From: Microvirga sp. 17 mud 1-3 | Lineage (GTDB): Bacteria > Pseudomonadota > Alphaproteobacteria > Rhizobiales > Beijerinckiaceae | DNA length: 64,000 nucleotides | Reading direction: 5' to 3' | Assembly (NCBI RefSeq): GCF_003151255.1 | Contig: NZ_CP029481.1 | Location: forward strand, 1,488,001 to 1,552,000 | Shown here: one piece after another, positions 20,644-34,225 of the stretch | How positions within the stretch are numbered: the first letter of the stretch is position 1 | Layout: each line of letters starts with the position of its first letter | The notes under the pieces: generated by a model | Seen by the model: only the letters and a program-made list of their open reading frames with translations | What the model was told of the DNA's origin: nothing | The model's database searches: none | Translations under genes and position numbers: made by a program

Positions 20644-22011
20644 CTATCCTGCGCGCGCCAGTTCCGCGCTCAGGCGGCCAATGGCATGCCGCTGTTCCAT
20701 CTGCGGCATATGACCGGTCGCCGAAAAGACGTGAACGGCGATATTCCCCGGAAGGCCCATGGCATGGCGAACCGGAATGATCCGGTCCTCAGCGCCAAAG
20801 ATGACCTTCACGGGCCAGTCGAAGCTCTCGAGAAGAGGCCGGATGCTGAAGGCCTGCGTCCCATCCGGGAAGATGCTGGCGGCGAGCCGTTCCTGGAGTT
20901 TCGGTTGGTCGCTGGTTCGTGCCCGCAGCGTGGCACTCACGAAGGACGCTCCCAGGGAGCCTTCGTCGAAGACGAGCTCCCGAACCCACGGTGCCAGGCT
21001 CGCCTCGCTCGTCGCGCGCAGGAAGCCCGAGATGAAGGCACCGTTGATGTCGGGGCCAAGCCCGGCTGGCGAGAGCAGCATCAGCGAACGGATGTCCAGC
21101 ATCGACTGCGCTGCGACGGTCGCCGCAACGGCAGCGCCAAGCGAGTGGCCGATCAGATGGAGGCTACCGACGCCCTCATCCGCAAGAGTGTCGAGCACGG
21201 CTGCCGCGAGATCCTCGAGAGAGCTCTGGCCCGCCAAGGGAGAGCGGCCATGCCCTGGAAGATCGATTCCGAGGATCGGCCGATCCGAGGGCAGGGACGA
21301 GAGGACAGGGCGCCAGCTGTTCAGGTCGGATCCAAAACCATGGATCAGGACGAGGGGCGTGCCCGTGCCCTGACGCAACCAGGTCCGGTAAAGGGGGGAG
21401 GTTCCGGACGTCGGTGCCGGGATGGCATCCTGCCGGGCCCGGGCCAATCGTGGCGAAGAGACCTCGGCTACAGCGCTCGTACTGACATCGTTCCCAGACA
21501 GAGTGCCGAGATGTTCGAGCACGTCGCTTTGCTGAATACGTCCCCGGGGCCCGGAACCTTGCAGGCGGCTCAGCTCGATGCTGTGCTCGCGAGCAAGTCG
21601 CCGCGCCAAGGGCGTGGCGCGCAGGCCGTCCGATACCGACGTCTGTCCCATAGGCAGGGCTGCAGGCGGTGTGGCCGGAGCCGGGGATGCGGGTCGAGCC
21701 GGGGCATCGGCAGAAGTTGGGATATCGATAGGAGCGCCAGGCGCCGCCTGGACCGGGCCATTATAAGCCTCGCCCTCCCCATAGATCTGGGCGACCACGC
21801 TGCCGACCGGGACTTCCTTGCCTTCTTCGCCTGTGATGTCCCGAATGATGCCGGACACGGGGGCTTCGATCTCCATCACGGCCTTGTCCGTCTCGAGCTC
21901 GAAGATCACCTGGCCCTTCTCGACCTTGGCATTCTCGTCGACAAACCAGCGGGAGACTTTGCCGGTCGCCATATCCATGTCGACGCGCGGCAGGATCACC
22001 TCGGTAGGCAT
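20644..22011 (-). CDS. acoC: E2-like lipoyl protein fused to an alpha/beta hydrolase (AcoC type)
   Basis: The protein has 455 residues from an ATG at 22011, with AAGGAGG seven bases upstream. Residues 1-78 are a lipoyl domain with the attachment lysine in FELETDKAVMEIEAP. Residues about 130-165 are a peripheral-subunit-binding domain (RATPLARRLAREHSIELSRLQGSGPRGRI). Residues about 195-455 are an alpha/beta hydrolase with nucleophile GHSLGAA, in place of the usual E2 acyltransferase domain. This architecture is known from acetoin dehydrogenase E2 (AcoC). The operon also encodes both E1 chains and a DRL-like oxidoreductase but no E3, which must come from elsewhere. Confidence 0.9.
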   Translation of the reverse strand: MPTEVILPRVDMDMATGKVSRWFVDENAKVEKGQVIFELETDKAVMEIEAPVSGIIRDITGEEGKEVPVGSVVAQIYGEGEAYNGPVQAAPGAPIDIPTSADAPARPASPAPATPPAALPMGQTSVSDGLRATPLARRLAREHSIELSRLQGSGPRGRIQQSDVLEHLGTLSGNDVSTSAVAEVSSPRLARARQDAIPAPTSGTSPLYRTWLRQGTGTPLVLIHGFGSDLNSWRPVLSSLPSDRPILGIDLPGHGRSPLAGQSSLEDLAAAVLDTLADEGVGSLHLIGHSLGAAVAATVAAQSMLDIRSLMLLSPAGLGPDINGAFISGFLRATSEASLAPWVRELVFDEGSLGASFVSATLRARTSDQPKLQERLAASIFPDGTQAFSIRPLLESFDWPVKVIFGAEDRIIPVRHAMGLPGNIAVHVFSATGHMPQMEQRHAIGRLSAELARAG

Positions 22012-22013
22012 CG

Positions 22014-23036
22014 TCAAGCCTCCTTGCGAACGAGCTTGCGCGCCGCCGCAACGATGTCGGGAACTTGAGGCACGGCGGCCTTTTCCAGCTCCGGATTATA
22101 GGGGAGGGGGGACTCGGCGCCGCCCAGCCGCAGCACGGGCGCATCGAGATAGTCGAAGGCGTCGCTCTCGACGATGGCGGCGCTGATCTCGGCACCGATG
22201 CCCAGGGTCTTCACCCCTTCATAGACGCAGAGGAGCCGGGAGGTCTTCTTGACGCTCTCGATGATCGTCGCCGTATCCATGGGGCGGAGGGATCGCAGGT
22301 CTACCACCTCGACGTCGATTCCCTCGTCGGCAAGCTGCTGGGCTGCGTCGAGCGACTTATGGACCATGATCGACGTGGCCACGATGGTCAGGTCGCGGCC
22401 ATGACGGCGGGTCTCGGCCTTGCCGATCGGCACCGTATAATGGCCCTCCGGCACCGGACCCTTCATCTTGTAGAGCAGCTTATGCTCGAAGATCATGACG
22501 GGATCCGGGTCCGCCACGGCGGCGAGCAGCATTCCCTTCGCGTCGTGCGGCGTCGAGGGCTGGAGCACCTTGAGGCCGGGCACGTGGGCAAGCCAGGCCT
22601 CGAGGCTCTGGCTGTGCTGCGCGGCCGCGCCGGTCCCGGAGCCTGCCGGGAAGCGCATGACGAGGGGGACCGAGACATTGCCGCCGAGCATGTAGCGCAT
22701 CTTGGCGGCCTGGTTCACGATCTGCTCCATTGCGAGCGTCGCGAAGTCCGAGAACTGAAACTCGAAGATCGGCCGCATGCCCGTGACGGCTGCGCCGACC
22801 GCGACGCCGGCGCCACCAAGCTCGGAGATGGGCGTGTCCATGACCCGATCCTCGCCGAAGCGATGGACCAGGTCGCCGGTCACTTGGAAGGCGCCGCCAT
22901 AGACGCCGATATCCTCGCCCATGAGAAAGACGCGTTCGTCCATCTCCATGGCGATGGCCATGGCCTCCTGGATAGCCTGGGCATAGCTGAGTTCGCGCAC
23001 ATTCGCATCCATGGCGGCATCAATCCGTGTAGACAT
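22014..23036 (-). CDS. acoB: thiamine-dependent 2-oxo acid/acetoin dehydrogenase E1 beta subunit
   Basis: The protein has 340 residues with the transketolase-type fold of E1 beta: [41 protein letters not shown] broken over the first strands, [14 protein letters not shown] motif ([21 protein letters not shown]) and the C-terminal [24 protein letters not shown]. It pairs with the E1 alpha chain encoded directly before it; the start at 23036 overlaps the end of that gene by 17 bases, and an ATG at 23012 is an alternative. The complex would cleave an alpha-hydroxyketone or decarboxylate a 2-oxo acid. Confidence 0.92.
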
Positions 23037-24042
23037 ATTGCGTGACGTCGGAAGGGGAGGGCGACGGGCTTGCCTTGGCGAACTCCAGCCCCTCGGCGAT
23101 CTCCGTCTCCACCTCGGTGCGGATCTTCTCGATCTCGTCGGGCGTGATCAGGCCGAGCTGGGTCAGTTCGGTCTCGAAGATGCCGATCGGGTCGCGGGCT
23201 TGCCAGGACTCGATCTCCTCCTTGGTCCGGTAGCGGTTACGATCGGAGCGCGAGTGGCCCCGGATGCGGTAGGTCTTGCTCTCGATCAGGGTCGGGCCCT
23301 CGCCACGGCGGGCTCTATCGGCGGCCTCGAAGGACGCGGCGGCCACGGCCCCGAAATTGTTCCCGTCGACGATGACGCCCGGCATGGAATAGGCACTGGC
23401 CCGGTCCGCGATGTTCGGCACTGCGGTCGAGCGCTTCGTCGAGGTGGACATGCCATAGCCGTTGTTCTCGCAGACGAAGATCACCGGCAGCTTCCAGATC
23501 GAGGCCATGTTGAGAGCCTCGTGGAACGCGCCTTCGTTGTTGGCGCCGTCGCCGAAGAAGGACACGACGACGGAATTCTTGCCCTGCTTCTTCAGGGCAA
23601 GTGCGGCCCCTACGGCGATGGGAATGCCACCGCCGACGATGCCATTGGCGCCGAGATTGCCTTTCGAGACGTCGGCGATATGCATGGATCCGCCGCGGCC
23701 GCGGCAATAGCCGTCTTCCTTGCCGAAGAACTCGGCAAACATGCGCTTCACTTCCGCACCCTTGCCGATGCAATGGCCATGACCACGATGGGTGGAGGTG
23801 ATGAAGTCAGCGTCCGTCAGCGGAGCGCAGATGCCAACCGCGCTGGCCTCCTGGCCGATGGACAAGTGCATCGTGCCGTGGATCAGGCCGCGCATATACG
23901 CTTCCTCCGCGCTTTCTTCGAAGCGGCGGATGAGGTGCATCTTGCGAAGCGCTTCCCTCAGGTCGTCGGAGGAAAGGCGCCGGTAGACGTCCGGCAGATT
24001 GGCGACAGGGGGCGCTGCCTTATCGGTCGTCGGTTGAGGCAT
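23020..24042 (-). CDS. acoA: thiamine-dependent 2-oxo acid/acetoin dehydrogenase E1 alpha subunit
   Basis: The protein has 340 residues from the ATG at 24042; an upstream ATG at 24075 is possible. The TPP-binding motif [20 protein letters not shown] leads to [15 protein letters not shown], and [11 protein letters not shown] and [10 protein letters not shown] are typical of AcoA/PdhA. In acetoin dehydrogenase the E1 chains cleave CH3-CO-CHOH-R to an acetyl unit and an aldehyde. The gene lies 51 bases after a DRL-like oxidoreductase, which suggests that the natural substrate may be a deoxyketose phosphate rather than acetoin (inference). Confidence 0.92.
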
Positions 24043-24093
24043 GACAATTCTCTCGGCAGGTTGGGCAGGCAGCATGAGGCCGCCCGTTCGTTC

Positions 24094-25422
24094 TCAGGCG
24101 ACTTCAGCGAACCGCGCATCCGCTTCATCGAGGCGGCGGCGAATCTGGGTGACGACGAAGGACTCGTCCGGCTGGCAATTCGTATAGGTGAGGCGCTCAC
24201 CCGCCTTGATCGGCTTCACAACCTTGGCGCGCTCCGAGAGGCCGAGCGGCAGGGCGCGCTCGCTGCGTGCATCGCTCCAGGTCATGGCGAAGCCGCGATA
24301 GTCCGTCTCGCCGATCTTGCCCAGAGTTTCGCCCGGCTGGAGATCGCGCTTGGCGACCGAGACACATTCCGCGACCGGATGGTCGAGAGGCTGCATGTCG
24401 GGCCTCCCGAAAGCGACGGCTCGCGCGGCGGAGAGCGGCGTCTCGAGGCTGGTCAGGTGATAGGGGCGGAGGATCGAGAAGCATGGGCCAGGGCCCACCT
24501 TAAGGTCGACCATGCGCTCAAGGACGCGGGGATGCCTCGGCTTTACGATGCAGAAGACGCCCGGCGCGACTCCCTTGCCGATCGAATAGTCGACGACGCC
24601 CGAACGGTTGAGAATGCCGCCGTCCTCTTTGGTGCACAGCACCTGCGCCAGCTGCTCGCGCGTGGCGGTGGGGCCGTGCATGCCGGGAACGTCCGGCACA
24701 AGCCCGGTGGCGTTCGCGACCGCAACCATCTCGACCATGGTCTTGGTACCGTCCACGAACTCCACCAGCATGCGCGCATTCATGTTGCGCGCCCGGGCCT
24801 CCTCCTCATAGTCGGCCGGCATGGCGTCGAACTTGAGCGGATTGTTCTTGCCTTTGCCGGCAGCCACCACTTCGAAGCCGAGGCTCTGGGCGAAGCTGAG
24901 GATTTCCAGCGTACAGGCCGGCTCGTCACCGGCGGCGCCCGTGTAGACGACCCCGGCCTTGCGGGCCTCTTCCTTGAGGAAGCGCCCGACCGTGATGTCG
25001 GCTTCCACGTTCAGCATGACCACATGCTTGCCGTTCTTCATCGCCTCGAGGGCGAAGAGCGTGCCGATATTGGGATTGCCGGTGGCGTCGATCACCACAT
25101 CGATCCGCCCGGCCGCGCAAAGGGCGTTGATGTCTTCCGTGATGGCAACCTTGTTGGCCTCGATGGCGCGGTCAATGTCGGAGGCCGTGGAGGCGTTCAC
25201 AACGTCATCGAGCGCATGGCCGGCCAGGAGGGCCGCATCCCGTGCCGCCTGCGGGCGAACTTCGGAAATGGCACCGATGCGCACGCCGGGCATGAGCGCG
25301 ACCTCGACGACGATGTCGGTGCCCATCTGGCCCGCGCCGGCCAAGCCGATCGTGATCGGTCCCGACTTCTCCATCCGAGCGGCAAGCTCAGCTGCCAAAC
25401 CCAGTTGCGCGATCCGCGGCAT
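24094..25422 (-). CDS. DXR-II/DRL-like oxidoreductase with C-terminal SAF domain
   Basis: The protein has 442 residues. The N-terminal Rossmann fold has IGLAGAGQMGTDIVVE and IDVVIDATGNPNIGT; the central part resembles homoserine-dehydrogenase-like enzymes (GDEPACTLEILSFAQSLGFEVVAAGKGKNNPL); the C-terminus from about residue 350 is a SAF domain (CVSVAKRDLQPGETLGKIG). This matches, from memory, the DRL family, whose Brucella member turns 1-deoxyxylulose 5-phosphate into 2-C-methylerythritol 4-phosphate in place of DXR. Many DRL relatives occur in genomes with ordinary DXR and have unknown roles. Here it heads an operon with an acetoin-dehydrogenase-like complex, divergent from PTS genes. The start at 25422 follows GGGAAAGG; 25440 is an alternative. 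Confidence 0.78.
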   Translation of the reverse strand: MPRIAQLGLAAELAARMEKSGPITIGLAGAGQMGTDIVVEVALMPGVRIGAISEVRPQAARDAALLAGHALDDVVNASTASDIDRAIEANKVAITEDINALCAAGRIDVVIDATGNPNIGTLFALEAMKNGKHVVMLNVEADITVGRFLKEEARKAGVVYTGAAGDEPACTLEILSFAQSLGFEVVAAGKGKNNPLKFDAMPADYEEEARARNMNARMLVEFVDGTKTMVEMVAVANATGLVPDVPGMHGPTATREQLAQVLCTKEDGGILNRSGVVDYSIGKGVAPGVFCIVKPRHPRVLERMVDLKVGPGPCFSILRPYHLTSLETPLSAARAVAFGRPDMQPLDHPVAECVSVAKRDLQPGETLGKIGETDYRGFAMTWSDARSERALPLGLSERAKVVKPIKAGERLTYTNCQPDESFVVTQIRRRLDEADARFAEVA

Positions 25423-25487
25423 CGAACTGACCTTTCCCATTGAAGAGCGATGTCAGAAGGCTAGAGAACTTTTGTGTGTCGGTCAAA

Positions 25488-25498
25488 CAATATGTACA
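25488..25498 (-). promoter_or_regulatory. 11-bp motif TGTACATATTG, copy 1
   Basis: Read on the minus strand this is TGTACATATTG. It lies about 65 bases upstream of the DRL-like gene. An identical copy in the opposite direction is at 25909-25919 and a one-mismatch copy at 31900-31910, so it is a candidate operator for a shared regulator, probably the SorC protein at 30814-31848. Confidence 0.55.
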
Positions 25499-25908
25499 TT
25501 CTGAGAGCGCCATCCCTGCGATATTGCAGGCCTCAGAGACCTCCTGGTCTACCTCAAAGCCTGATCCTCATGGCCTGGCCATGGCTCCACAGTACGAAAG
25601 AACTATGCGGGGATGCCTATCGGTCACCTACTAAGCCAAGGTCTCGCTCGGACAATGCACAGCTTAAGACCGCGCCTCTGCCTGTGTCTGATTCAGATGG
25701 CGGCCCACCCAGGGCCCTGATCGACCCGCCAGGGATCGAGGCCGTGTGTGCGAAAGGGTCCGTGCAGTTCGGGACGAGATGAATTTCCAGCTCGTTGGCC
25801 CCCTACGCGTCACTGTCCAGTGGATTCATCAAGTGAGGGCTATGCTGGACACTCAACGCCAGTCACACTGTTCAGAGATGCCTTTCCCGGCTTCTCTCGC
25901 CGGCCTTG

Positions 25909-25919
25909 TGTACATATTG
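25909..25919 (+). promoter_or_regulatory. 11-bp motif TGTACATATTG, copy 2
   Basis: The motif is identical to copy 1 but in the opposite direction. It lies about 110 bases upstream of the GutM-like gene that starts the glucitol-type PTS operon. Confidence 0.55.
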
Positions 25920-26030
25920 ACATAAAAGGTGGCAAATGTTCTCCTCTGAAAATTGGCCTAAATGGCCGCGAAGGCCGACCATGCAGAGAGAACGTCTTGT
26001 TCGCCTGCGTGTTCAAGCTGGAGGTGGGTG

Positions 26031-26456
26031 ATGCCCCTATGGCAGATCGGATTGCTGCTGCTCGGCGTGGTCTGGCTCCTTCAGGCCGTCGGGACCTGGC
26101 TGCAGATGCGGCATTACCGCGAGGTCATGAGCTCCATCGGAGGCAAGTGGACCGACGGGTATCTGGGTGTCGGCAATGCCCGCGCCAGCCTCGGGCGAGG
26201 CGTCATTCTCATGCTGGTTCTTGGTCCGGACGACACGATCCGGGATCTGCTCGTCATGGAGGGGAGGAGTGTCTTCGCCAAGTTCGAGCGGCTGAGCCAG
26301 TATCAAGGCCGCAATGTCGGCAGCCTCCTTGAGGACGAGTCCTTTACAGGAAGGCGCGGGCGCAGGCAGGCCCTGGAACAGGCATTGCAGCAAATCGCCA
26401 GCGCAAAAGCTAGGAAGTCCGAGGTTCCGGCTCTGCCGGATCAGCAGCCGGCATGA
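26031..26456 (+). CDS. gutM: GutM-like glucitol operon activator protein
   Basis: The protein has 141 residues from the ATG at 26031, with GGAGGT upstream. It has an N-terminal membrane segment (LWQIGLLLLGVVWLLQAVGTWLQMRHY) and the GutM features GKWTDGYLGVGNARASLGRGVILMLVLG and MEGRSVFAKFERL. GutM proteins accompany glucitol PTS genes and help activate them, by a mechanism that is not well understood. It lies 53 bases before the SrlA-like IIC gene, probably in the same operon. Confidence 0.85.
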   Translation: MPLWQIGLLLLGVVWLLQAVGTWLQMRHYREVMSSIGGKWTDGYLGVGNARASLGRGVILMLVLGPDDTIRDLLVMEGRSVFAKFERLSQYQGRNVGSLLEDESFTGRRGRRQALEQALQQIASAKARKSEVPALPDQQPA

Positions 26457-26509
26457 GCCCGGCCGCATAATATAAGACGAGGCTTAGCCTTACGTCAGAG
26501 GGAGGAAAC

Positions 26510-27307
26510 ATGACAATCCTTGCCACGATGGCTCAGCACATCGATGTGATTGGTGAAGGTCTTCACCACGCATCGCTGAGTGCAAGCCACGCCGTCCACA
26601 GCCTGGGCATGGCTGCGGCAGACGGCGCACATGCAGGCCACGCCGCGGGACAGGCATCCGGCGACATGATCGTTCTCGCCCAGAACACAGCTCCCGCGGC
26701 TCCGGGCACGGCAGCGGACTTCGCGAACCGGGTGAAGAACGTCGCTCAGGAGGAGCAGCTTGGGTGGCTCTCCACAATCGGCCGCCATTTCATCGGCGTG
26801 TTCCAGCAGGGCGGTCAGGTCTTTACCGGATTTGTCACGGGCATCATCCCGACCCTGATCGTCCTGATGACGGCATTCTATGCCGTTACAGAAATCGTCG
26901 GCGAGCAGCGGGTGCACGGATTGGCGCGCGCAGCAGGACGAATTGCGCTGACCCGCTACACGGTCCTGCCCGTCATGGCGATGTTCTTCCTCACCAACCC
27001 CATGGCCTATACGTTCGGGACCTTCCTCGAGGAGAGGCACAAGCCGGCCTTCTACGATTCGGCGGTGTCGTTCTGCCATCCCATCACGGGCCTCTTCCCC
27101 CACGCTAATGCGGGCGAGTACTTCGTGTGGGGCGGTGTCCTGGTCGCTCTCCAGCAGCTTGAGGCTGCCGGGAAATTACCCTCCGGCTGGCATGTCAATC
27201 TTGCCGTCTGGTACTTCATCGTCGGCGTCGTGGTGATCTTCATCAGAGGCATCGTGACGGAAAAGATCACGCAGATCATGGCTCGCCGCGAAGGCGTGAA
27301 GCTCTGA
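26510..27307 (+). CDS. srlA: PTS glucitol/sorbitol-type permease IIC, with histidine-rich N-terminal extension
   Basis: The protein has 265 residues. Residues about 85-265 match the SrlA IIC component (GRHFIGVFQQGGQVFTGFVTGIIPTLIVLMTAFYAV, FGTFLEERHKPAFYDSAVSFCHPITGLFPHANAGEYFVWGG broken over helices). E. coli SrlA is about 187 residues; the extra N-terminal 80 residues are rich in His, Ala and Gly (LHHASLSASHAVHSLG, GAHAGHAAGQ) and are not part of the usual family. The protein forms half of the membrane channel with the IIB/C2 product of the next gene, 21 bases downstream. Confidence 0.9.
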   Translation: MTILATMAQHIDVIGEGLHHASLSASHAVHSLGMAAADGAHAGHAAGQASGDMIVLAQNTAPAAPGTAADFANRVKNVAQEEQLGWLSTIGRHFIGVFQQGGQVFTGFVTGIIPTLIVLMTAFYAVTEIVGEQRVHGLARAAGRIALTRYTVLPVMAMFFLTNPMAYTFGTFLEERHKPAFYDSAVSFCHPITGLFPHANAGEYFVWGGVLVALQQLEAAGKLPSGWHVNLAVWYFIVGVVVIFIRGIVTEKITQIMARREGVKL

Positions 27308-27328
27308 GCGGAATGTGGGAGGAGTGCC

Positions 27329-28348
27329 ATGACAAAGACATACAGAGCCGTACGTATCAATCACGGATCGGGTGGCTGGGGCGGCCCGCTGGTCATCAAG
27401 CCGACGGCGCAGAAGGATAAGATCGTCGCCGTTACCGGTGGCGGAATTCCCCCGCTGGCCCAGAAGCTCGCCGATATGACCGGCGCGACCGTCGTCGACG
27501 GCTTCCGGGCACCGCCCGTCGAGGGCGAAATCGCCGCGGTGGTGATCGATTGTGGCGGAACCGCGCGATGTGGCGTCTATCCGCGCAAGCGTATTCCGAC
27601 CGTGAACCTGACGCCCGTCGGGCAATCAGGACCGCTGGCTCAGTTCATCACGGAGGACATTTACGTCTCCGGCGTGAAGGAGGCCAACCTGTCCTTTGCG
27701 GATGACGAGGATATTCCGGCGCCTGCTTCCGCCGGCGCGAGCGACCTGTCGCCGTCGGTCGGCGAGGCTGCGGCCGAAGCCCGGTCGGACATGGCGCATT
27801 CCACCGCGCCTGCCAGCGGCTTCATCGGCATTGTGACCAGCGTCGGCCGCGTCATGGGCCGAGCCGTCGCGATCTTCTTCAACGCGGGCCGCCGGACAAT
27901 CGATCAGGTGATCCGTAACGTGCTGCCGTTCATGGCCTTCGTGACCATGCTCATCGGCATCATCCTGTATACCGGCATTGGCGACCTGCTAGCCCAACCC
28001 ATGGGGCCGCTCGCCAACAACATTATCGGCCTTGTCATCCTTGCGGCCATCTGCGGCTTGCCGTTCCTGTCGCCCGTGCTCGGGCCCGGGGCCGTCATCG
28101 CGCAGGTGATCGGCGTCGCGATCATCGGTCCGCAGATCGCCAACGGAACCATTGCGCCCGCAATGGCTCTGCCGGCGCTCTTTGCCTATAACGCCCAGGT
28201 CGGCTGCGACTTCGTACCCGTCGGTCTGGCCCTCGGAGAAGCCAAACCGAAGACGATCGAGATCGGCGTCCCGGCAGTTCTGCTCAGCCGTCAGATCACC
28301 GGGCCCATCGCGGTTCTGGTCGCCTACGGAGCGAGCTTCTTCCTCTAA
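27329..28348 (+). CDS. srlE: PTS glucitol/sorbitol-type IIB/IIC2 component
   Basis: The protein has 339 residues. The phosphorylated cysteine is Cys75 in the motif IDCGGTARCGVYPRKRIPT. Residues about 165-339 are membrane-embedded (VIRNVLPFMAFVTMLIGIILYTGIGDL and following). Length and architecture fit E. coli SrlE (about 319 residues). It transfers phosphate from IIA to the incoming alditol. It is the third gene of the gutM-srlAEB-ptsHI operon. Confidence 0.93.
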   Translation: MTKTYRAVRINHGSGGWGGPLVIKPTAQKDKIVAVTGGGIPPLAQKLADMTGATVVDGFRAPPVEGEIAAVVIDCGGTARCGVYPRKRIPTVNLTPVGQSGPLAQFITEDIYVSGVKEANLSFADDEDIPAPASAGASDLSPSVGEAAAEARSDMAHSTAPASGFIGIVTSVGRVMGRAVAIFFNAGRRTIDQVIRNVLPFMAFVTMLIGIILYTGIGDLLAQPMGPLANNIIGLVILAAICGLPFLSPVLGPGAVIAQVIGVAIIGPQIANGTIAPAMALPALFAYNAQVGCDFVPVGLALGEAKPKTIEIGVPAVLLSRQITGPIAVLVAYGASFFL

Positions 28349-28363
28349 ACAGAAAAGAGACCC

Positions 28364-28750
28364 ATGACAGTTTTCTACCAGACGAAGATCACGGATGTCG
28401 GTCCTGAAGTCGCCGAACTGATCGAAGGCGGCGTCCTGATCCTCTACGCGGTGGGGGCTCCGCCGGAGCTGGCCGAGGTATCGGTGCTGCACAAAGTTGA
28501 GACCGGACCCACTGTAGAGGCTCCGCCGGTTGGAGCAGAGCTTCGCATTGGTGACGTCTCGGCAGCGTTGACGGCTATCGGTGAGCTGGCATGGAAGAAA
28601 GTTGCGGATATCGGCCACGTCGTGATCAATTTCGACGGGGCCGATACCGCTGGCCGGCCGGGAGAGCTCTGCGCCTCCAAGGTCGATGCCGCCATTCTGC
28701 TCAAAGCCCTTGCGCCAGGAGCCGCGATCGCGATCCGATCCGCCGCTTAA
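28364..28750 (+). CDS. srlB: PTS glucitol/sorbitol-type IIA component
   Basis: The protein has 128 residues, a typical IIA-Gut length. The phospho-accepting histidine is His43 in SVLHKVE, the same position as in E. coli SrlB. It accepts phosphate from the HPr domain encoded by the next gene and passes it to Cys75 of the IIB component. It lies 15 bases after srlE. Confidence 0.9.
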   Translation: MTVFYQTKITDVGPEVAELIEGGVLILYAVGAPPELAEVSVLHKVETGPTVEAPPVGAELRIGDVSAALTAIGELAWKKVADIGHVVINFDGADTAGRPGELCASKVDAAILLKALAPGAAIAIRSAA

Positions 28751-28760
28751 CGAGCGAACG

Positions 28761-28811
28761 CTGATTCATTTGAGAGTTTATGCGGCGCTCCGCGCGCCGC
28801 CTCTGATTCAT
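28761..28811 (+). repeat. short direct repeat flanking a hairpin before ptsHI
   Basis: CTGATTCATT occurs at 28761-28770 and again at 28802-28811. Between them lies a hairpin, GCGGCG (28782-28787) with CGCCGC (28795-28800). The element sits between srlB and the HPr-EI gene and could tune expression of the latter. Confidence 0.4.
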
Positions 28812-28823
28812 TGGAGAAGAGCG

Positions 28824-30779
28824 ATGCAGATCGAGCGAGCCGTTTGCGTCAGAGTTCGCGACGGCCTTCATGCCCGTCCCGCGACACAGTTCGTCAAGCT
28901 CGCGAAAAGCTTCCAGTCCGATATCGAGATTGTCCGAGACGGACAGGGTGTCAATGCGAAGAGCTCCGTCAAGCTGATGCTTCTCGGCATCAAGGAGAAT
29001 GATGAACTCGTTCTGCGTGCAAGCGGCGAGGATGCCGCCACGGCCATGGATGCGCTCAGCCGTTTCATGGAGACGCCGGACGCAGGGTTGGACGTTGGAG
29101 CGCCAGACGCGCATGCGTCAGCTGCTCCCTCACAGGAAACCAGGCCACCGAAACCATCCTTGTCGGAAGAGCCACGAGGCATTCCGGCGAGCGAAGGGAC
29201 GGCCTTGGGGCCCGTCCACCACTTCTTCCACGATCCGTTGAAGGTCGAGCGACGCCAAGTGCATCCGGACCAGATCGAGGCGGAAATCCTGCGCTACGAG
29301 GAGGCTGTCGCACGGACGGCTTTGGTCCTTGCGGAGGAGCGCAAACGGGCGGACCTCAAGCCAGAGGATCTTCAAATCATCAATGCGCTGATCGACGTGG
29401 CGCACGATGCGGAACTCGTCGGGCAGGTGAAGGGCAGGATCGGGAGCGGTGAGGATGCTGTCTATGCGACCCTCGCGGCCGGAGATGATCTTGCCCGCTC
29501 CTTCGAAGCCATGAGCGATCCTTACATAAGGGCCCGTGCCGAGGATATCAGAGGCATTACGAGAAATGTGGCCCTGACGCTGCTTGGACGCCGCGAAGCA
29601 ACGCTCGCGGATGTGGCGGAGGGCGCAATCATCGTAGCGGAGGAGATCAGTGCCTGGGATTTCGCGAAGGCGCCGATCGGACGCATTGCGGGACTTCTCT
29701 GCACCAAAGGGTCTTCGACCTCGCATATCGCCATTATGGCGCGCACCCACGGCCTTCCGGCTGTGCTCGGGTATCCCGGTTCCGTCGAGGCGCTCCGCAG
29801 AGCGAAGACCGCTGCGATCGACGGCCATACGGGCGAGGTGGTGCTGGATCCGTCGGAATGGGTAGTAGCGACCTTCCGCGCTCGGATCGACAAGGAGGCG
29901 GAGGCCCGCGCACAGCTGGCGCGCTATTCTCACATGGAGCCGCGAACCCGTGACGGAACGCTGATCGAGGTTGCGGCCAATCTCGGCTCCCTCAGCGAGA
30001 TCGACGCTGCTCTGAAGGCCGGTGCCATGGGCGTCGGGCTGTTCCGCACGGAGCTCCTTTTCATGGAGCGCAAGGTGCTGCCGACGGAGGATGAGCAGGC
30101 GGACATCTATACCGAGCTCGCGCGCGCGTTCGCGCCGCATCCGGTCATCGTCCGCACGCTCGATATCGGCGGCGATAAGCCGATTGCGGGTATTGATTTT
30201 CCCGAGGAAGCCAATCCCTTCCTGGGCTGGCGCGGAATTCGCATGTGCCTGGACCGGCTCGATATCTTCCGGCCGCAACTGAAGGCTCTCCTGCGGGCCG
30301 CGACCGTCGGCAACATCAAGATCATGGTACCCATGATTTCCGACGTATCGGAGCTCAAAGCCGTGAAGGCGCTGCTGGATGAGTGCAGAATGGAACTACG
30401 GAACCAGGGAATTCCATACGGGGATGCTGAGCTCGGTGTCATGATGGAAACGCCAGCAGCCGCCCTCGGGGCCGACGAGCTGGCGGCCGAGGCGGACTTC
30501 TTCTCGATTGGGACCAATGACCTGACCCAATACATTATGGCGGCAGACCGCCTGAACGCTCGCCTCGTCAATCTTAACCGGGCGGATCACCCCGCTGTGA
30601 TGAAGGCGATCGACCTCATCTGCCAGGCAGCGAAGGGAGGTGGGATCTGGGTCGGTATCTGCGGAGAGGCCGCGGCCCGCGAGGACCTGATCCCGGAATT
30701 CGTCCGTATGGGCGTCACCGAACTGAGCATGAGCCCGGCCTCGATCCCGAGAGCCAAGAAGCGCATCATCGAGTTGTGA
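28824..30779 (+). CDS. ptsHI: fused HPr-Enzyme I phosphotransferase
   Basis: The protein has 651 residues from the ATG at 28824 (GGAGAAGAG upstream). Residues 1-88 are HPr with active His16 in RDGLHARPA and the regulatory serine region NAKSSVKL. A 25-residue linker leads to Enzyme I: catalytic His in KGSSTSHIAIMAR, PEP-binding GVGLFRTELLFMER and EARP segment, and the C-terminal active-site Cys in GICGEAA. It uses PEP to energise the glucitol-type PTS in the same operon and presumably the galactitol-type PTS nearby. Alphaproteobacteria mostly carry only the regulatory nitrogen PTS, so a dedicated sugar HPr-EI fusion marks this as a specialised uptake locus. Confidence 0.95.
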   Translation: MQIERAVCVRVRDGLHARPATQFVKLAKSFQSDIEIVRDGQGVNAKSSVKLMLLGIKENDELVLRASGEDAATAMDALSRFMETPDAGLDVGAPDAHASAAPSQETRPPKPSLSEEPRGIPASEGTALGPVHHFFHDPLKVERRQVHPDQIEAEILRYEEAVARTALVLAEERKRADLKPEDLQIINALIDVAHDAELVGQVKGRIGSGEDAVYATLAAGDDLARSFEAMSDPYIRARAEDIRGITRNVALTLLGRREATLADVAEGAIIVAEEISAWDFAKAPIGRIAGLLCTKGSSTSHIAIMARTHGLPAVLGYPGSVEALRRAKTAAIDGHTGEVVLDPSEWVVATFRARIDKEAEARAQLARYSHMEPRTRDGTLIEVAANLGSLSEIDAALKAGAMGVGLFRTELLFMERKVLPTEDEQADIYTELARAFAPHPVIVRTLDIGGDKPIAGIDFPEEANPFLGWRGIRMCLDRLDIFRPQLKALLRAATVGNIKIMVPMISDVSELKAVKALLDECRMELRNQGIPYGDAELGVMMETPAAALGADELAAEADFFSIGTNDLTQYIMAADRLNARLVNLNRADHPAVMKAIDLICQAAKGGGIWVGICGEAAAREDLIPEFVRMGVTELSMSPASIPRAKKRIIEL

Positions 30780-30813
30780 GTTCCCTCTCGGACCGGGAGG
30801 CCCGGTTCGGGAC

Positions 30814-31848
30814 CTATGAAAGCTGAGAGGGCGGTACGCCGACAGCCGAGAGCACAGAAGCGGCCGTGACTTCATCCGTGATGAAGACCGTCGGCTTCAC
30901 CATGCGAATGGCACCGATGATCGCATCGATCTTGCTTGGCCCCCCAGAGGTCAGAATCCGGTTCGGCGCTCCCGCGAGGCTTTCGACCGGAATGGCCATG
31001 ACGCGCTCGTTCACGGGATGATCGACGAGGCGGCCGTCGAGGCCGTAGAAGAAGTAGAGCAGGTCGCCAACGGCGCCCTCTTTAATCAGCTCCAGCCGAT
31101 CCTGTTCGGAGAAATAGCCGAACCGATAGGCGGTGGCGTCCGGGTTCATGCCACCGACGCTCAGTAGCACCGCATCGAGCGAGCGTCCTACTTCGAAGAT
31201 CTCGGACAGGCCGCATCGCTCGATGAGGGCGTGCTTAGTCTCGACGCTGTCAACCAGAGCCGGGGCAGGGAGCAGGAAGCACTCCGACTGGAGAAGCCTG
31301 GAGAACTGCCATGCAAACTCGGTCGGGTTGTACTGCTTGGCCTTCACGATGCCTCCCAACAGGGAGACGACGGAGATATCGGGGATCTGGCGGTCACTGA
31401 TGAAAGCAAGCGATTGCAGCAGGGTCTTGCCCCAGCCGACGCCGATCTTCATGCCCGGCTGCAAGAACTCGGAAATGAACTGTCCCGTGGCCGCTGCAAT
31501 CGTACGGGTGGGGTCAGCATCCTTGGACGAGACGGGAGCCACGATGACCTCCCCGATGCCGAAAGCTCTCTCTAGTGCCATCTCAAGCGACGTCAGTTCA
31601 GAGACGGCACGGCTGAGGGTGATGCGGACCTCATGGAGGTTCCGTGCATCCGACAGAAGCCGCACGACGGTCACGCGACCGATGCCCAGGGCGTCTGCAA
31701 TCGCGCTCTGAGTCATCTCTTCGACGTGGTACATCCAGGCGGCACGAAGCCTGAGCCGGTCCGATCGACGGCCAACGGGCATGGGAGCAGTGTCGGTATC
31801 GGCTGACGCAGCAGCGGCGTTTTTCTTTCGCGCTTTGTTCTCGGTCAT
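30814..31848 (-). CDS. SorC/DeoR-family sugar-binding transcriptional regulator
   Basis: The protein has 344 residues. A helix-turn-helix (AWMYHVEEMTQSAIADALGIGRVTVVRLLSDAR) is followed by a SorC-type sugar-phosphate sensor domain (GVGWGKTLLQSLA, SLLGGIVKAKQYNPTEFAWQ, DHPVNERVMAIPVESLAGAPNRILTSGG). It is convergent with the gutM-ptsHI operon and divergent from the galactitol-type PTS. The shared 11-bp motif before all three operons of the region suggests that it controls them together, with a phosphorylated pathway intermediate as inducer (inference). Confidence 0.92.
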   Translation of the reverse strand: MTENKARKKNAAAASADTDTAPMPVGRRSDRLRLRAAWMYHVEEMTQSAIADALGIGRVTVVRLLSDARNLHEVRITLSRAVSELTSLEMALERAFGIGEVIVAPVSSKDADPTRTIAAATGQFISEFLQPGMKIGVGWGKTLLQSLAFISDRQIPDISVVSLLGGIVKAKQYNPTEFAWQFSRLLQSECFLLPAPALVDSVETKHALIERCGLSEIFEVGRSLDAVLLSVGGMNPDATAYRFGYFSEQDRLELIKEGAVGDLLYFFYGLDGRLVDHPVNERVMAIPVESLAGAPNRILTSGGPSKIDAIIGAIRMVKPTVFITDEVTAASVLSAVGVPPSQLS

Positions 31849-31899
31849 GGCAGATTTCTAGCCTGGGCTCGCAAGAAATACAACGGCGAGTACTTCAGC

Positions 31900-31910
31900 T
31901 GAACATATTG
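31900..31910 (+). promoter_or_regulatory. 11-bp motif, copy 3 (TGAACATATTG)
   Basis: It differs at one base from the copies at 25488 and 25909. It overlaps a 10-bp palindrome, TTCAGCTGAA at 31894-31903, in the divergent region between the SorC regulator and the galactitol-type PTS operon. Confidence 0.5.
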
Positions 31911-32029
31911 CGCAGTAGATAGACGAATGATCTAATCAATTCTCTAGAGCCGGATATCCGGTCCGCGCATGTCGCTAACCGGTCAAAGAACGCCGGGTGG
32001 TAAATGGAGCCAGTCGGGAGGAAGAGGCC

Positions 32030-33457
32030 ATGGACGGCATACTGACAGCCTTCAAAGGTGTCGTGGATACCCTCGGTGCAACGGTTTTGCTGCCGATCAT
32101 CATTTTCATCATTGCGCTGGTGCTCGGTGCGCGTCCAGGCAGGGCGTTTCGGGCCGGCCTGACCATCGGCATTGCCTTCATCGGCATCAATCTCGTGCTG
32201 GGGCTGATGCTGACCACCCTTGGCGAAGTCGCCCAAGCCATCGTCAAGAATACCGGGATGCAGCGGGACATTGTGGATGTCGGCTGGCCTTCCGCGGCGG
32301 CCATCGCGTTCGGGTCGTCCGTCGGCCTGTGGGTGATCCCCATCGGCATCATCGTCAATATCGCCCTGTTGCTCGTAGGCCTGACACGAACGCTCAATGT
32401 TGACGTCTGGAATTTCTGGCACTTCGCCTTTGTAGGCTCGCTCGTGGTCGCCGCGACCGGGAGCCTGGGCTACGGCCTCGCGGCAGCTGCCCTTATGGCA
32501 GCCCTGGCGCTCGTGCTTGCGGACTGGACCGCCAAGGGCGTGCAGCGCTTCTATGGGGTGCCCGGGGTGTCAGTGCCTCACCTCGCGTCTGCGCAGATCG
32601 TGCCGATCGCGATCGTCCTGAACTGGATCATGGATCGCATTCCCGGCATCAACACCATCCAGCTTGATACCGATACGGTGCAGAAGAGGCTCGGCGTCTT
32701 CGGCGAGCCGATCGTCCTCGGTCTCGTCATCGGCCTGGTGCTCGGCTTCGCGGCCTACTACAACGCCGGCGATGCAGGCACCGTCCTCTCGAAGGTCCTG
32801 AAGACCGGCATCAATCTGGCGGCCGTGATGCTGCTGCTGCCAAGAATGGTCAAAATCCTCATGGAGGGCCTTATCCCGGTTTCCGAAGCGGCACGGGAAT
32901 TCGTGCAGAAGCGGGCCGGCGACCGGGAGATCCATGTGGGCCTGGATTCGGCGATCCTGATCGGCCACCCGGCCGCGATCGCCAGTTCTCTCGTCCTGGT
33001 GCCGGTTGCGATCGTGCTGTCAATCATTCTTCCGGCAAACCGGATCATTCTGTTCGCGGACCTCGCGGTTATTCCGTTCGTCGTTGCCATGACGGCTCCG
33101 ATCGTCAACGGAAACGTCTTCCGGATGATCGTCATCGGGGCGATTACACTGACGGTCGGCTTCTACGTAGGCATGGCACTGTCGCCGCTCATGACATCGA
33201 CCGCGCAGACGGCAGGGTTCCAGATCCCGGCCAACGCGACGCTCATCACAAGCGTCGTCGACGGCTTCCTCTACATCCCCTACCTCGTGATCAGTGCCAT
33301 TTCGGCGCTGGGCTGGCTCGGTGTCGGGCTGGTTCTCGTTGCGGTCGCGGCTCTCCTCTTCGGCTTCCGGTCTGCACCGCGGGCATGGGAGCGCATGGCC
33401 GGGGCCGAGCCGACGGAGCCCGTCATCCAGACCCGCGCCACAATGCCGGCGGAGTAG
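32030..33457 (+). CDS. gatC: PTS galactitol-type IIC component
   Basis: The protein has 475 residues from the ATG at 32030, behind a GGGAGGAAGAGG ribosome-binding site. It has about ten membrane helices and GatC features: LGATVLLPIIIFIIALVLGARPGRAFRAGL at the N-terminus, SVPHLASAQIVPIAIVLNWIMDRIPG and FGEPIVLGLVIGLVLGFAAYY in the middle. GatC-type permeases import galactitol and other alditols. Three bases separate its stop from the IIA gene. Confidence 0.93.
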   Translation: MDGILTAFKGVVDTLGATVLLPIIIFIIALVLGARPGRAFRAGLTIGIAFIGINLVLGLMLTTLGEVAQAIVKNTGMQRDIVDVGWPSAAAIAFGSSVGLWVIPIGIIVNIALLLVGLTRTLNVDVWNFWHFAFVGSLVVAATGSLGYGLAAAALMAALALVLADWTAKGVQRFYGVPGVSVPHLASAQIVPIAIVLNWIMDRIPGINTIQLDTDTVQKRLGVFGEPIVLGLVIGLVLGFAAYYNAGDAGTVLSKVLKTGINLAAVMLLLPRMVKILMEGLIPVSEAAREFVQKRAGDREIHVGLDSAILIGHPAAIASSLVLVPVAIVLSIILPANRIILFADLAVIPFVVAMTAPIVNGNVFRMIVIGAITLTVGFYVGMALSPLMTSTAQTAGFQIPANATLITSVVDGFLYIPYLVISAISALGWLGVGLVLVAVAALLFGFRSAPRAWERMAGAEPTEPVIQTRATMPAE

Positions 33458-33460
33458 GGC

Positions 33461-33922
33461 ATGGCTGTCGATTTTCGATCGATCCTCTCTCCCCAGGCCA
33501 TGTGCCTGGGGATATCGGCCAGATCATCAGACGAAGTGATCAGGCTTTTGGGAGAGCGGCTCATTGCTCTCGGAAAGGTCAAGGCTGATTACCCGGATGC
33601 GCTGATCTCCCGTGAGAGCACCATGCCCACCGGACTGCCTCTCGGCACGATCAACGTAGCCGTTCCCCATTCCGATCCTGTGCATGTCGTTGCTCCGGCC
33701 ATCGCATTGGCCACTCTGGAAGAGCCCGTCTCCTTTGGCAGCATGGATGACCCTGAGGACAGAATTCCAGTCCAGATTGTCATTGCCCTGGCATTGACCG
33801 ACAAGGATGCGCAGATCGAAATGCTGCAGGCCGTTGCAGGCTTTATCCAAAACCCGGGAGCTCTGGCCGCCCTTGCCGAGGCAAGGACGCCCGAGGAGGC
33901 ATTCTCGGCCCTTCCAACCTGA
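33461..33922 (+). CDS. gatA: PTS IIA component, galactitol/fructose type
   Basis: The protein has 153 residues and the mannitol/fructose/galactitol IIA fold. The phospho-accepting histidine is His70 in INVAVPHSDPVHV, preceded by RESTMPTGLPLG. It takes phosphate from HPr, most likely the HPr-EI fusion at 28824. Confidence 0.92.
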   Translation: MAVDFRSILSPQAMCLGISARSSDEVIRLLGERLIALGKVKADYPDALISRESTMPTGLPLGTINVAVPHSDPVHVVAPAIALATLEEPVSFGSMDDPEDRIPVQIVIALALTDKDAQIEMLQAVAGFIQNPGALAALAEARTPEEAFSALPT

Positions 33923-33937
33923 AAAGTGAGTTTTTCT

Positions 33938-34225
33938 ATGGCTCAGCCCAAAGTCGTTCTGGTCGCCTGCGGAACAGCGGTCGCAACATCAACCGTCGTT
34001 GCGCTTGCAATCGAGGAGGCCATGGCGGAACGGGGTATTCCTGTCGTGATCCGCCAGTGCAAGGCAACTGAGGTTCGCAGCATGGTTGCCGATGTCGACA
34101 TCGTGGTTGCGACGACTCCGGTGCCAGACGATCTTGGCAAGCCGACATTCAAGGGCCTTCCGTTCCTCACCGGTATCGGAAAGAGCCAAGTGCTGGACGA
34201 TATTGAGAAGGCGCTGCGGAGCTAA
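33938..34225 (+). CDS. gatB: PTS IIB component, galactitol type
   Basis: The protein has 95 residues. The phosphorylated cysteine is Cys11 in VVLVACGTAVATSTVVA, the P-loop of GatB-type IIB. The ATG at 33938 has an AAGTGAG site upstream; a GTG at 33926 is also in frame. It is the last gene of the operon. No polyol-phosphate dehydrogenase or kinase follows, unlike typical galactitol operons. Confidence 0.9.
   Translation: MAQPKVVLVACGTAVATSTVVALAIEEAMAERGIPVVIRQCKATEVRSMVADVDIVVATTPVPDDLGKPTFKGLPFLTGIGKSQVLDDIEKALRS

Follow-up and report, generated by a model that had tools for sequence, protein, structure and literature searches.

A gene cluster in Microvirga predicted to degrade 2-C-methyl-D-erythritol by running the start of isoprenoid synthesis in reverse

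Introduction

Why would a bacterium that has a canonical ispC keep an oxidoreductase of the DXR-II type (DRL) among genes for polyol uptake and for a complex resembling acetoin dehydrogenase? The question is raised by a 64-kb stretch of Microvirga sp. 17 mud 1-3 (hereafter the window; positions 1488001-1552000 of a single-contig 4.40-Mb genome), in which a leftward operon running from 25440 to 20644 encodes DRL, E1 alpha, E1 beta and E2, in that order. On the divergent side lie genes for GutM, the IIC, IIB and IIA proteins of a glucitol (gut)-type phosphotransferase system (PTS), an HPr-enzyme I (HPr-EI) fusion, a SorC/DeoR regulator on the opposite strand and, up to 34225, a galactitol-type IIC-IIA-IIB set. 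The initial annotation had named the DRL, AcoABC-like, glucitol-type PTS with HPr-EI, and galactitol-type PTS genes, all of which are found by Pfam and NCBIfam searches; GutM and the regulator are additional members. It had also noted that the cluster lacks a polyol-phosphate dehydrogenase and an aldolase, and a Pfam scan of 13 cluster proteins likewise detects neither.

We posit that these genes serve the inducible breakdown of 2-C-methyl-D-erythritol, or of a very similar branched tetritol. With phosphate supplied by the cluster's HPr-EI, the glucitol-type PTS would import the polyol as a phosphate, 2-C-methyl-D-erythritol 4-phosphate (MEP); DRL would then oxidize and rearrange MEP to 1-deoxy-D-xylulose 5-phosphate (DXP), reversing MEP synthesis and probably using NAD+. 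The acetoin-dehydrogenase-type E1, a thiamine pyrophosphate (TPP) enzyme, would cleave the C2-C3 bond of DXP, the one that DXP synthase (DXS) makes, to release glyceraldehyde 3-phosphate, and the acetyl group would pass to the lipoyl-E2 and on to CoA with the help of a housekeeping E3, for a net yield of acetyl-CoA and glyceraldehyde 3-phosphate. All three promoters of the cluster would be under the SorC/DeoR regulator. We put the probability of this route at about two in three. A pathway of this kind had been suggested by the initial annotation, and the comparisons below support it. Among the literature matches listed, mostly open access, no title or abstract opening describes one, which is no proof of absence.

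A DXR-II in an unusual setting

By its sequence, the window's DRL is a true DXR-II: it matches DRL_cat with an E value of 1.2e-64 and the Brucella DXR-II structure 3UPL with 2e-147, and its nearest named relative is from Microvirga (92%). Excerpts of a 2013 paper on the family (PMC3847144) name, in Brucella numbering, substrate residues K191, K193 and T229 and dimer-interface residues E174, F178, R320 and Y322, and include G121, H250 and V351 among the residues that mark family divergence. A comparison with such key residues, recommended in the initial annotation, finds every one of them identical in the window's DRL when it is aligned with Brucella DXR-II. Four of the positions (K196, K198, T234 and H255 in window numbering) are invariant across 146 distinct DXR-II-clade sequences, of which 71 have a sugar-gene context and 75 do not; these were left from 167 rows after removal of eight DLO-like rows and of identical sequences, with one short locus (L003) outside the table. 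In a tree that has no DLO reference sequence, four rows carrying N60 (32-35% identity) form a separate branch with a support of 100; they are called DLO-like for their divergence.

The window's DRL thus belongs to the same family as the DXR-II/DRL proteins of Brucella and others (3UPL, 3UPY), with the same length and the same residues at the sites checked. It differs in its neighbors, which are PTS genes and an acetoin-type E1-E2 set, in the presence of DXR-I in the same genome, and in carrying an acidic residue after strand beta2, where the Brucella enzyme has Ala followed by Arg-Arg. In the excerpted text of the 2013 paper, DXR-II is a documented MEP synthase, its role is discussed only as isoprenoid synthesis, and its distribution is explained mainly by gene loss and redundancy (PMC3847144).

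Conservation of the DRL-E1 linkage

Gene contexts were assessed by tblastn with proteins of the window and its relatives within 9-10 kb, so that genes farther away or too dissimilar go undetected, and a gene cut off by the end of a contig is scored as absent. Among the 49 loci with both E1 genes (duplicates included, distances measured between tblastn matches), 48 have E1 alpha immediately downstream of DRL, in the same orientation and within 332 nt; the gap is below 150 nt in 41 and 160-332 nt in seven, and the exception is Priestia. The partners vary: gutB is present in 25 of these loci, SorC in 31, EI in 19, gatC in seven and a sugar kinase in eight. As for the E2, 25 loci have the AcoC type and 24 the catalytic 2-oxoacid type. 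The counts indicate that the module for uptake and phosphorylation changes while DRL and E1-E2 stay. Sinorhizobium americanum has an ATP-binding cassette (ABC) transporter, a PfkB-type kinase and SorC with DRL, E1 alpha, E1 beta, E2 and Lpd; the Priestia locus combines E1-E2-Lpd with SorC, a major facilitator superfamily (MFS) transporter, DRL and an FGGY kinase; and plasmids of Terrarubrum and Pseudoroseomonas carry the same arrangement as the window. The linkage is found in Hyphomicrobiales, Acetobacteraceae and Burkholderia; Bacillota show it too, there with PTS or kinase genes. Because gut IIB has a single copy in the 4.4-Mb genome, in this cluster, because there are only five full-length E1 alpha-type matches in the whole genome and because the arrangement recurs in other families, the cluster is more than a product of chance; the genome's DRL_cat gene is likewise single. 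Each part is typical of its family, and their combination is conserved in ways predicted by a reversed MEP route.

Other DRL neighborhoods were seen as well. In Phyllobacterium, DRL comes after an ABC transporter and E1/E2 are missing. In Ligilactobacillus salivarius (L037:8995-16569), DRL and a gut PTS are followed by fructose-6-phosphate aldolase and transketolase rather than E1-E2, which may give DXP a fermentative outlet. A Mesorhizobium locus (L044:10001-19063) has a DRL 79% identical to the window's with a xylulokinase-like FGGY kinase, SorC, an rbs-type ABC transporter and a short-chain dehydrogenase/reductase, and no E1-E2. In Aestuariivirga (L083:9201-9983) a class II aldolase gene lies directly upstream of DRL, and ABC transporter genes are near.

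Division of labor with isoprenoid synthesis

The window's genome has a separate canonical ispC far from the cluster, a point that the initial annotation had left to be checked. More broadly, DRL_cat genes occur in 87 of 199 genomes of the window's GTDB family. From these we drew a sample of 51 regions in 47 genomes with a DRL_cat match spanning 486-495 nt (no insertion), leaving out longer match types, taken as DLO-like, as well as G194:C70, G138:C46 and G165:C36; 50 genomes were tested for DXR-I, and 17 have it. The 23 genomes with an E1-linked DRL, the window's included, divide into 13 with DXR-I, five with a stand-alone DRL (G104, G074, G099, G118 and G169, the last, G169:C117, grouped as E1-linked through the short locus L003) and five with neither (G017, G041, G021, G091 and G064), whereas none of the 21 genomes that have only stand-alone DXR-II-clade DRLs has DXR-I (Fisher p 2.6e-5 for 13/23 against 0/21, uncorrected for relatedness and with one genus supplying many genomes). 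The other four family genomes have DXR-I, and the locus sampled in each of them is DLO-like (32-35% identity); no E1 is seen on the 3.4 kb of L017 (G194), which carries no weight either way. A second sample was drawn at the phylum level, where 64 of 396 genomes have DRL_cat, and covers 26 regions from 17 genomes; it overlaps the loci of named genomes in that L203, L211 and L212 appear to be records of L112, L067 and L095. Here all eight Mesorhizobium-like genomes have one stand-alone and one E1-linked DRL, and one of them (G344) also has DXR-I; G238 has an E1-linked DRL and DXR-I, and G449 an E1-linked DRL only. Another DXR thus accompanies the E1-linked DRL in 18 of 23 genomes of the family sample and nine of 10 of the second.

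At six loci an open reading frame (ORF) of 595-618 aa follows a stand-alone DRL, and all four that were tested are dxs, far above the cut-off; these dxs-adjacent DRLs belong to another clade. Stand-alone DRL genes followed directly by dxs lie at L157:8470-11638, L161:6665-9981, L164:6791-9981 and L102:9941-13082. The family is thus paired with DXS where MEP must be made, whereas its partner in gene sets of catabolic appearance is an acetoin-type E1. The proposed route has the intermediates DXP and MEP in common with the MEP pathway (DXS-DXR), as also reflected in the dxs-DRL pairs of relatives, and differs from it in its reverse direction and in the use of a lipoate-linked E1-E2 in place of DXS.

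A link to these intermediates also comes from genomes in which the clustered DRL is the only DXR candidate: the five family genomes with neither DXR-I nor a stand-alone DRL, and G449. All six have IspF and lack HMG-CoA reductase and DXR-I, so that their clustered DRL must work on DXP/MEP unless the assemblies hide a gene; four of the six are fragmented (90-430 contigs), and the cleanest, Terrarubrum G017, has four contigs and a DRL 81% identical to the window's. Gene content thus strongly implies that the clustered DRL acts on MEP and DXP.

The E1-E2 complex

The cluster E2 scores 394 bits against a cut-off of 307 for the NCBIfam acetoin dehydrogenase E2 model (NF011457) and is AcoC-type. The E1 chains were compared with three genuine acetoin operons (L186-L188: one from Enterococcus with butanediol dehydrogenase and two from Burkholderiaceae with sigma-54 regulators, whose NAD-kinase-like gene we take as AcoX) and with three other E1 sets of the window's genome; the short E1 alpha of L036 was dropped. 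E1 alpha has H96, G98, C102, K105, I133-A134-D135 and A143 in common with the three acetoin operons, and these eight residues are absent from the three other E1 alpha chains of the genome. A further 16 positions in E1 alpha and 22 in E1 beta are conserved in DRL clusters and unlike both the three acetoin and the three own 2-oxoacid sets; some of these residues are basic (e.g., K190 and K276 of E1 beta), although they are listed without placement in a structure. Resemblance to AcoABC therefore lies in the E1 alpha residues, the AcoC-type E2 equivalog and the CH3-CO-CHOH-R chemistry; the differences are that the cluster E1 chains are just 44-50% identical to those of the acetoin operons and that a Pfam scan of the cluster proteins finds no AcoX, sigma-54 regulator or butanediol dehydrogenase.

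Since an acetoin-type E1 acts on CH3-CO-CHOH-R and DXP is such a compound, DXP is a possible substrate. The capacity of related E1 enzymes to handle DXP is seen in the opposite direction: as excerpts of one study state, Escherichia coli pyruvate dehydrogenase (PDH) E1 mutants make DXP and purified PDH makes 1-deoxyxylulose (PMC3424233). Dihydrolipoyl dehydrogenase genes adjoin two other E1 sets of the genome, and one of them could provide the E3. A relative of the complex was also met away from DRL: a Clostridioides difficile plasmid (L185:4016-9936) encodes a SorC-type regulator, an acetoin-like E1 alpha-E1 beta-E2-Lpd set and an MFS transporter on a stretch without DRL. With 57% identity, the E1 beta of this plasmid is nearer to that of the DRL clusters than the three genuine AcoB are.

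The cofactor site

In an AlphaFold model (mean pLDDT 69.5, with residues 218-293 below 50, and used only for this site in the better-predicted N-terminal domain), residue 60 comes right at the end of beta2 (53-59) in the Rossmann fold, whose GxGxxG lies before it at 35-40. At this place an acidic residue favors NAD(H), and NADP(H) is favored by a small one with Arg next in the chain. The position is acidic in all 45 distinct DRLs associated with E1E2 or gut PTS genes and, when kinases are also counted, in 70 of 71, compared with 27 of the 75 without any such context, suggesting that E1- or gut-linked DRLs use NAD+. Among the 27, ten are near SorC (L061, L065, L067, L070, L071, L073 and L104), GutM (L064) or ABC genes (L040 and L083), and three (L077, L097 and L119) have no such neighbor; the other 14 are taken up below. 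On the tree, which like our other trees comes from a quick search and is midpoint-rooted, residue 60 changes seven times.

Promoters and regulation

An 11-base motif, TGWACATATTG, occurs three times in the window, once in each cluster promoter region and nowhere else, against an expectation of 0.01 per shuffled window, a surprise that is overstated because the motif was picked by eye after the sites had been seen. No 16-base motif with up to three mismatches is common to the two intergenic regions. Two congeners have no exact copy (L151) or one (L155), and both have near copies on the DRL and GutM sides, with the sequence between them changed; six other relatives scanned give only looser matches. 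The shared motif suggests that the three promoters are regulated jointly, presumably by the cluster's own regulator. SorC/DeoR-type regulators sense sugar phosphates, so MEP or DXP would fit as the inducer.

Uptake and substrate

All of the IIC, IIB, IIA and GutM components of a glucitol/sorbitol (gut/srl) operon are present in the cluster, which, unlike that operon, has its own HPr-EI and a SorC/DeoR-type regulator and lacks sorbitol-6-phosphate dehydrogenase, a domain that the Pfam scan of cluster proteins does not find. In Salmonella, 2-C-methyl-D-erythritol is reportedly transported by the sorbitol PTS, as the title of a paper listed in the references of PMC3994034 has it, and import through such a PTS would yield MEP, the substrate of the reverse DRL reaction. 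Methylerythritol is made by plants, and atmospheric isoprene oxidation yields 2-methyltetrols. The galactitol-type PTS of the window may serve another isomer. Elsewhere, galactitol-type PTS genes lie near stand-alone, non-acidic DRLs of Mesorhizobium-like genomes (L197, L201, L205, L107, L117 and L118), an association that the methylerythritol route does not explain.

Alternative explanations

Several observations weigh against the methylerythritol route. DRL occurs with no E1/E2 nearby in PTS loci of Listeria (SorC-DRL-GutM-gut PTS), Ligilactobacillus (DRL-gut PTS-GutM-fsa-tkt) and Enterococcus, and in Mesorhizobium loci with FGGY and rbs-type ABC genes. E1 beta shares only four positions with the AcoB set, resembles the three AcoB less on average (45-47% identity) than it does a 2-oxoacid E1 beta chain of its own genome (50%) and passes the cut-off of an NCBIfam pyruvate dehydrogenase E1 beta model; the best NCBIfam model of E1 alpha is also a pyruvate dehydrogenase one, just under its cut-off. 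Acidity at residue 60 is not exclusive to a catabolic setting, because 14 acidic DRLs from two genera (10 and four rows, of DRSGR/DRRGT and ETRTD/EMRTD types) stand outside any sugar-gene context in genomes without DXR-I; these 14 and L140, from the first genus and near an FGGY gene, have Arg at +1 or +2. Conversely, the FGGY-neighbored DRL at L193 is non-acidic, in a genome (G344) that has DXR-I, a stand-alone and an E1-linked DRL. Nor does acidity alone equal an oxidative role, because the clustered acidic DRL must also make MEP in the six genomes in which it is the sole candidate. Corrected for relatedness, the link between residue and context rests on about six pairs, 4.5 in the same direction and none in the opposite one (median p 0.06), and with context limited to E1E2 or PTS, on 3.4 pairs in the same direction and none opposite (median p 0.25). 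The kinases found score under the cut-offs of xylulokinase, ribulokinase and ribokinase models, and none matches an erythritol kinase model. Lastly, DXR favors MEP, so flux would need the pull of the E1-E2 step.

Could the same enzymes serve a different import, such as 1-deoxy-D-xylulose, 1-deoxy-xylitol or a threo methyltetrol isomer, with DRL on a side branch or acting on an isomer and E1-E2 still cleaving a 1-deoxyketose phosphate? We consider this unlikely. In its favor, xylulokinase is the best-scoring model for the Mesorhizobium FGGY kinase, which leaves room for 1-deoxyxylulose or related polyols, XylB phosphorylates 1-deoxyxylulose according to an excerpted report (PMC3424233), and the second, galactitol-type PTS of the window suggests more than one polyol. 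A 1-deoxyketose entering directly would need no DRL, however, and DRL stays with each transporter type seen; the reported transport of 2-C-methylerythritol by a sorbitol PTS also speaks against it. Salvage, in which imported methylerythritol or deoxyxylulose feeds isoprenoids through MEP and E1-E2 is a neighbor with another task (acetoin or pyruvate oxidation), would account for PTS and DRL without E1/E2 in Listeria and for FGGY, ABC and DRL in Mesorhizobium; it appears improbable, given that methylerythritol salvaged as MEP requires no DXR, that the organism has its own ispC, that E1 alpha so regularly follows DRL and that the cluster-only E1 positions are absent from the acetoin and own 2-oxoacid sets alike. 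The family names (glucitol PTS equivalogs, acetoin E2, galactitol IIC) would at face value point to catabolism of glucitol, galactitol or acetoin, with DRL a bystander or active on another sugar phosphate. The scanned cluster proteins speak against it, since they include no sorbitol-6-phosphate dehydrogenase, aldolase, AcoX, sigma-54 regulator or butanediol dehydrogenase, unlike L186-L188, and DRL keeps K196, K198, T234 and H255 in all 71 sequences with sugar-gene context just as in the 75 others, making this more improbable still. Least credible, and very improbable indeed, is a back-up isoprenoid enzyme placed beside sugar genes by chance: DXR-II is a documented MEP synthase, but the linkage recurs from Hyphomicrobiales to Bacillota, genomes with an E1-linked DRL mostly hold another DXR, and the dxs-adjacent DRLs are stand-alone ones. 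The methylerythritol route, in turn, is strengthened by the replacement of the PTS with ABC or MFS transporters plus a kinase, the presence of a second DXR, the DXS-DRL pairs and the difference at the cofactor site.

Genes of the cluster

The features are compiled in Table 1. GutM is taken to start at an in-frame ATG preceded by GGAGGTGGG, and the true start of HPr-EI is probably downstream of 28750, because HPr begins at about residue 50 of the listed ORF. Within the genus the cluster is patchy: three of 13 listed genomes (the window's own, G030 and G188) have the window-type DRL cluster, in six DRL_cat finds nothing, and the gene of G196 is DLO-like; the check covered all but G114, G139 and G150.

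Table 1. Features of the cluster, in window positions
Feature	Position	Strand	Basis
E2, acetoin-dehydrogenase type (lipoyl, E3-binding and alpha/beta-hydrolase domains)	20644..22017	-	Pfam; NCBIfam NF011457 equivalog above cut-off
E1 beta (TPP enzyme; transketolase pyr and C domains)	22014..23036	-	Profile matches; aco operon comparison
E1 alpha, residues common with acetoin dehydrogenases	23020..24075	-	Profile matches; residue comparison
DXR-II/DRL oxidoreductase with E60 after beta2; proposed for an NAD-linked step from MEP to DXP; start may be 25422	24094..25440	-	DRL_cat; 3UPL alignment; model
Promoter motif copy 1, TGTACATATTG, upstream of DRL operon	25488..25498	-	Motif count
Promoter motif copy 2, upstream of GutM/gut PTS operon	25909..25919	+	Motif count
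GutM (glucitol operon activator family)	26031..26456	+	PF06923 E 2.7e-20 on ORF 25962-26456
Glucitol-type PTS IIC, N-terminal extension of ~87 residues	26510..27307	+	Pfam, NCBIfam
Glucitol-type PTS IIB(C)	27329..28348	+	Pfam, NCBIfam; sole genome copy
Glucitol-type PTS IIA	28364..28750	+	Pfam; under NCBIfam cut-offs
HPr-enzyme I fusion (ORF as listed)	28686..30779	+	Pfam, NCBIfam
SorC/DeoR-family regulator, sugar-binding domain	30814..31848	-	PF04198; nearest NCBIfam model DeoR, under cut-off
Promoter motif copy 3, TGAACATATTG, between regulator and gat IIC	31900..31910	+	Motif count
Galactitol-type PTS IIC	31997..33457	+	Profile match; under subfamily cut-off
Galactitol-type PTS IIA (PTS_EIIA_2)	33461..33922	+	Pfam
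Galactitol-type PTS IIB (PTS_IIB)	33926..34225	+	Pfam

Implications

The tree positions of the Bacillota, Priestia and Chelatococcus rows lead us to infer that the catabolic state is ancestral. DXR-II may thus have begun as, or may chiefly be, an NAD-linked enzyme of branched-polyol catabolism that was recruited several times for isoprenoid synthesis, losing the acidic residue at the cofactor site and in some cases joining up with dxs; we hold this broader idea tentatively, as a shade less probable than its opposite. A DXR-II gene is by itself no proof of a biosynthetic role, and the second, catabolic job offered here for the family would give a function to its puzzling distribution.

What we propose is a complete, testable pathway for a compound that comes from plants and isoprene oxidation, with a cofactor switch predicted at one residue and a natural enzyme complex that may cleave DXP. 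On the broader idea, bacteria would eat methylerythritol by reversing the first two steps of the MEP pathway, and this would account for the occurrence of DXR-II alongside DXR-I and even in Finegoldia, which has no MEP pathway.

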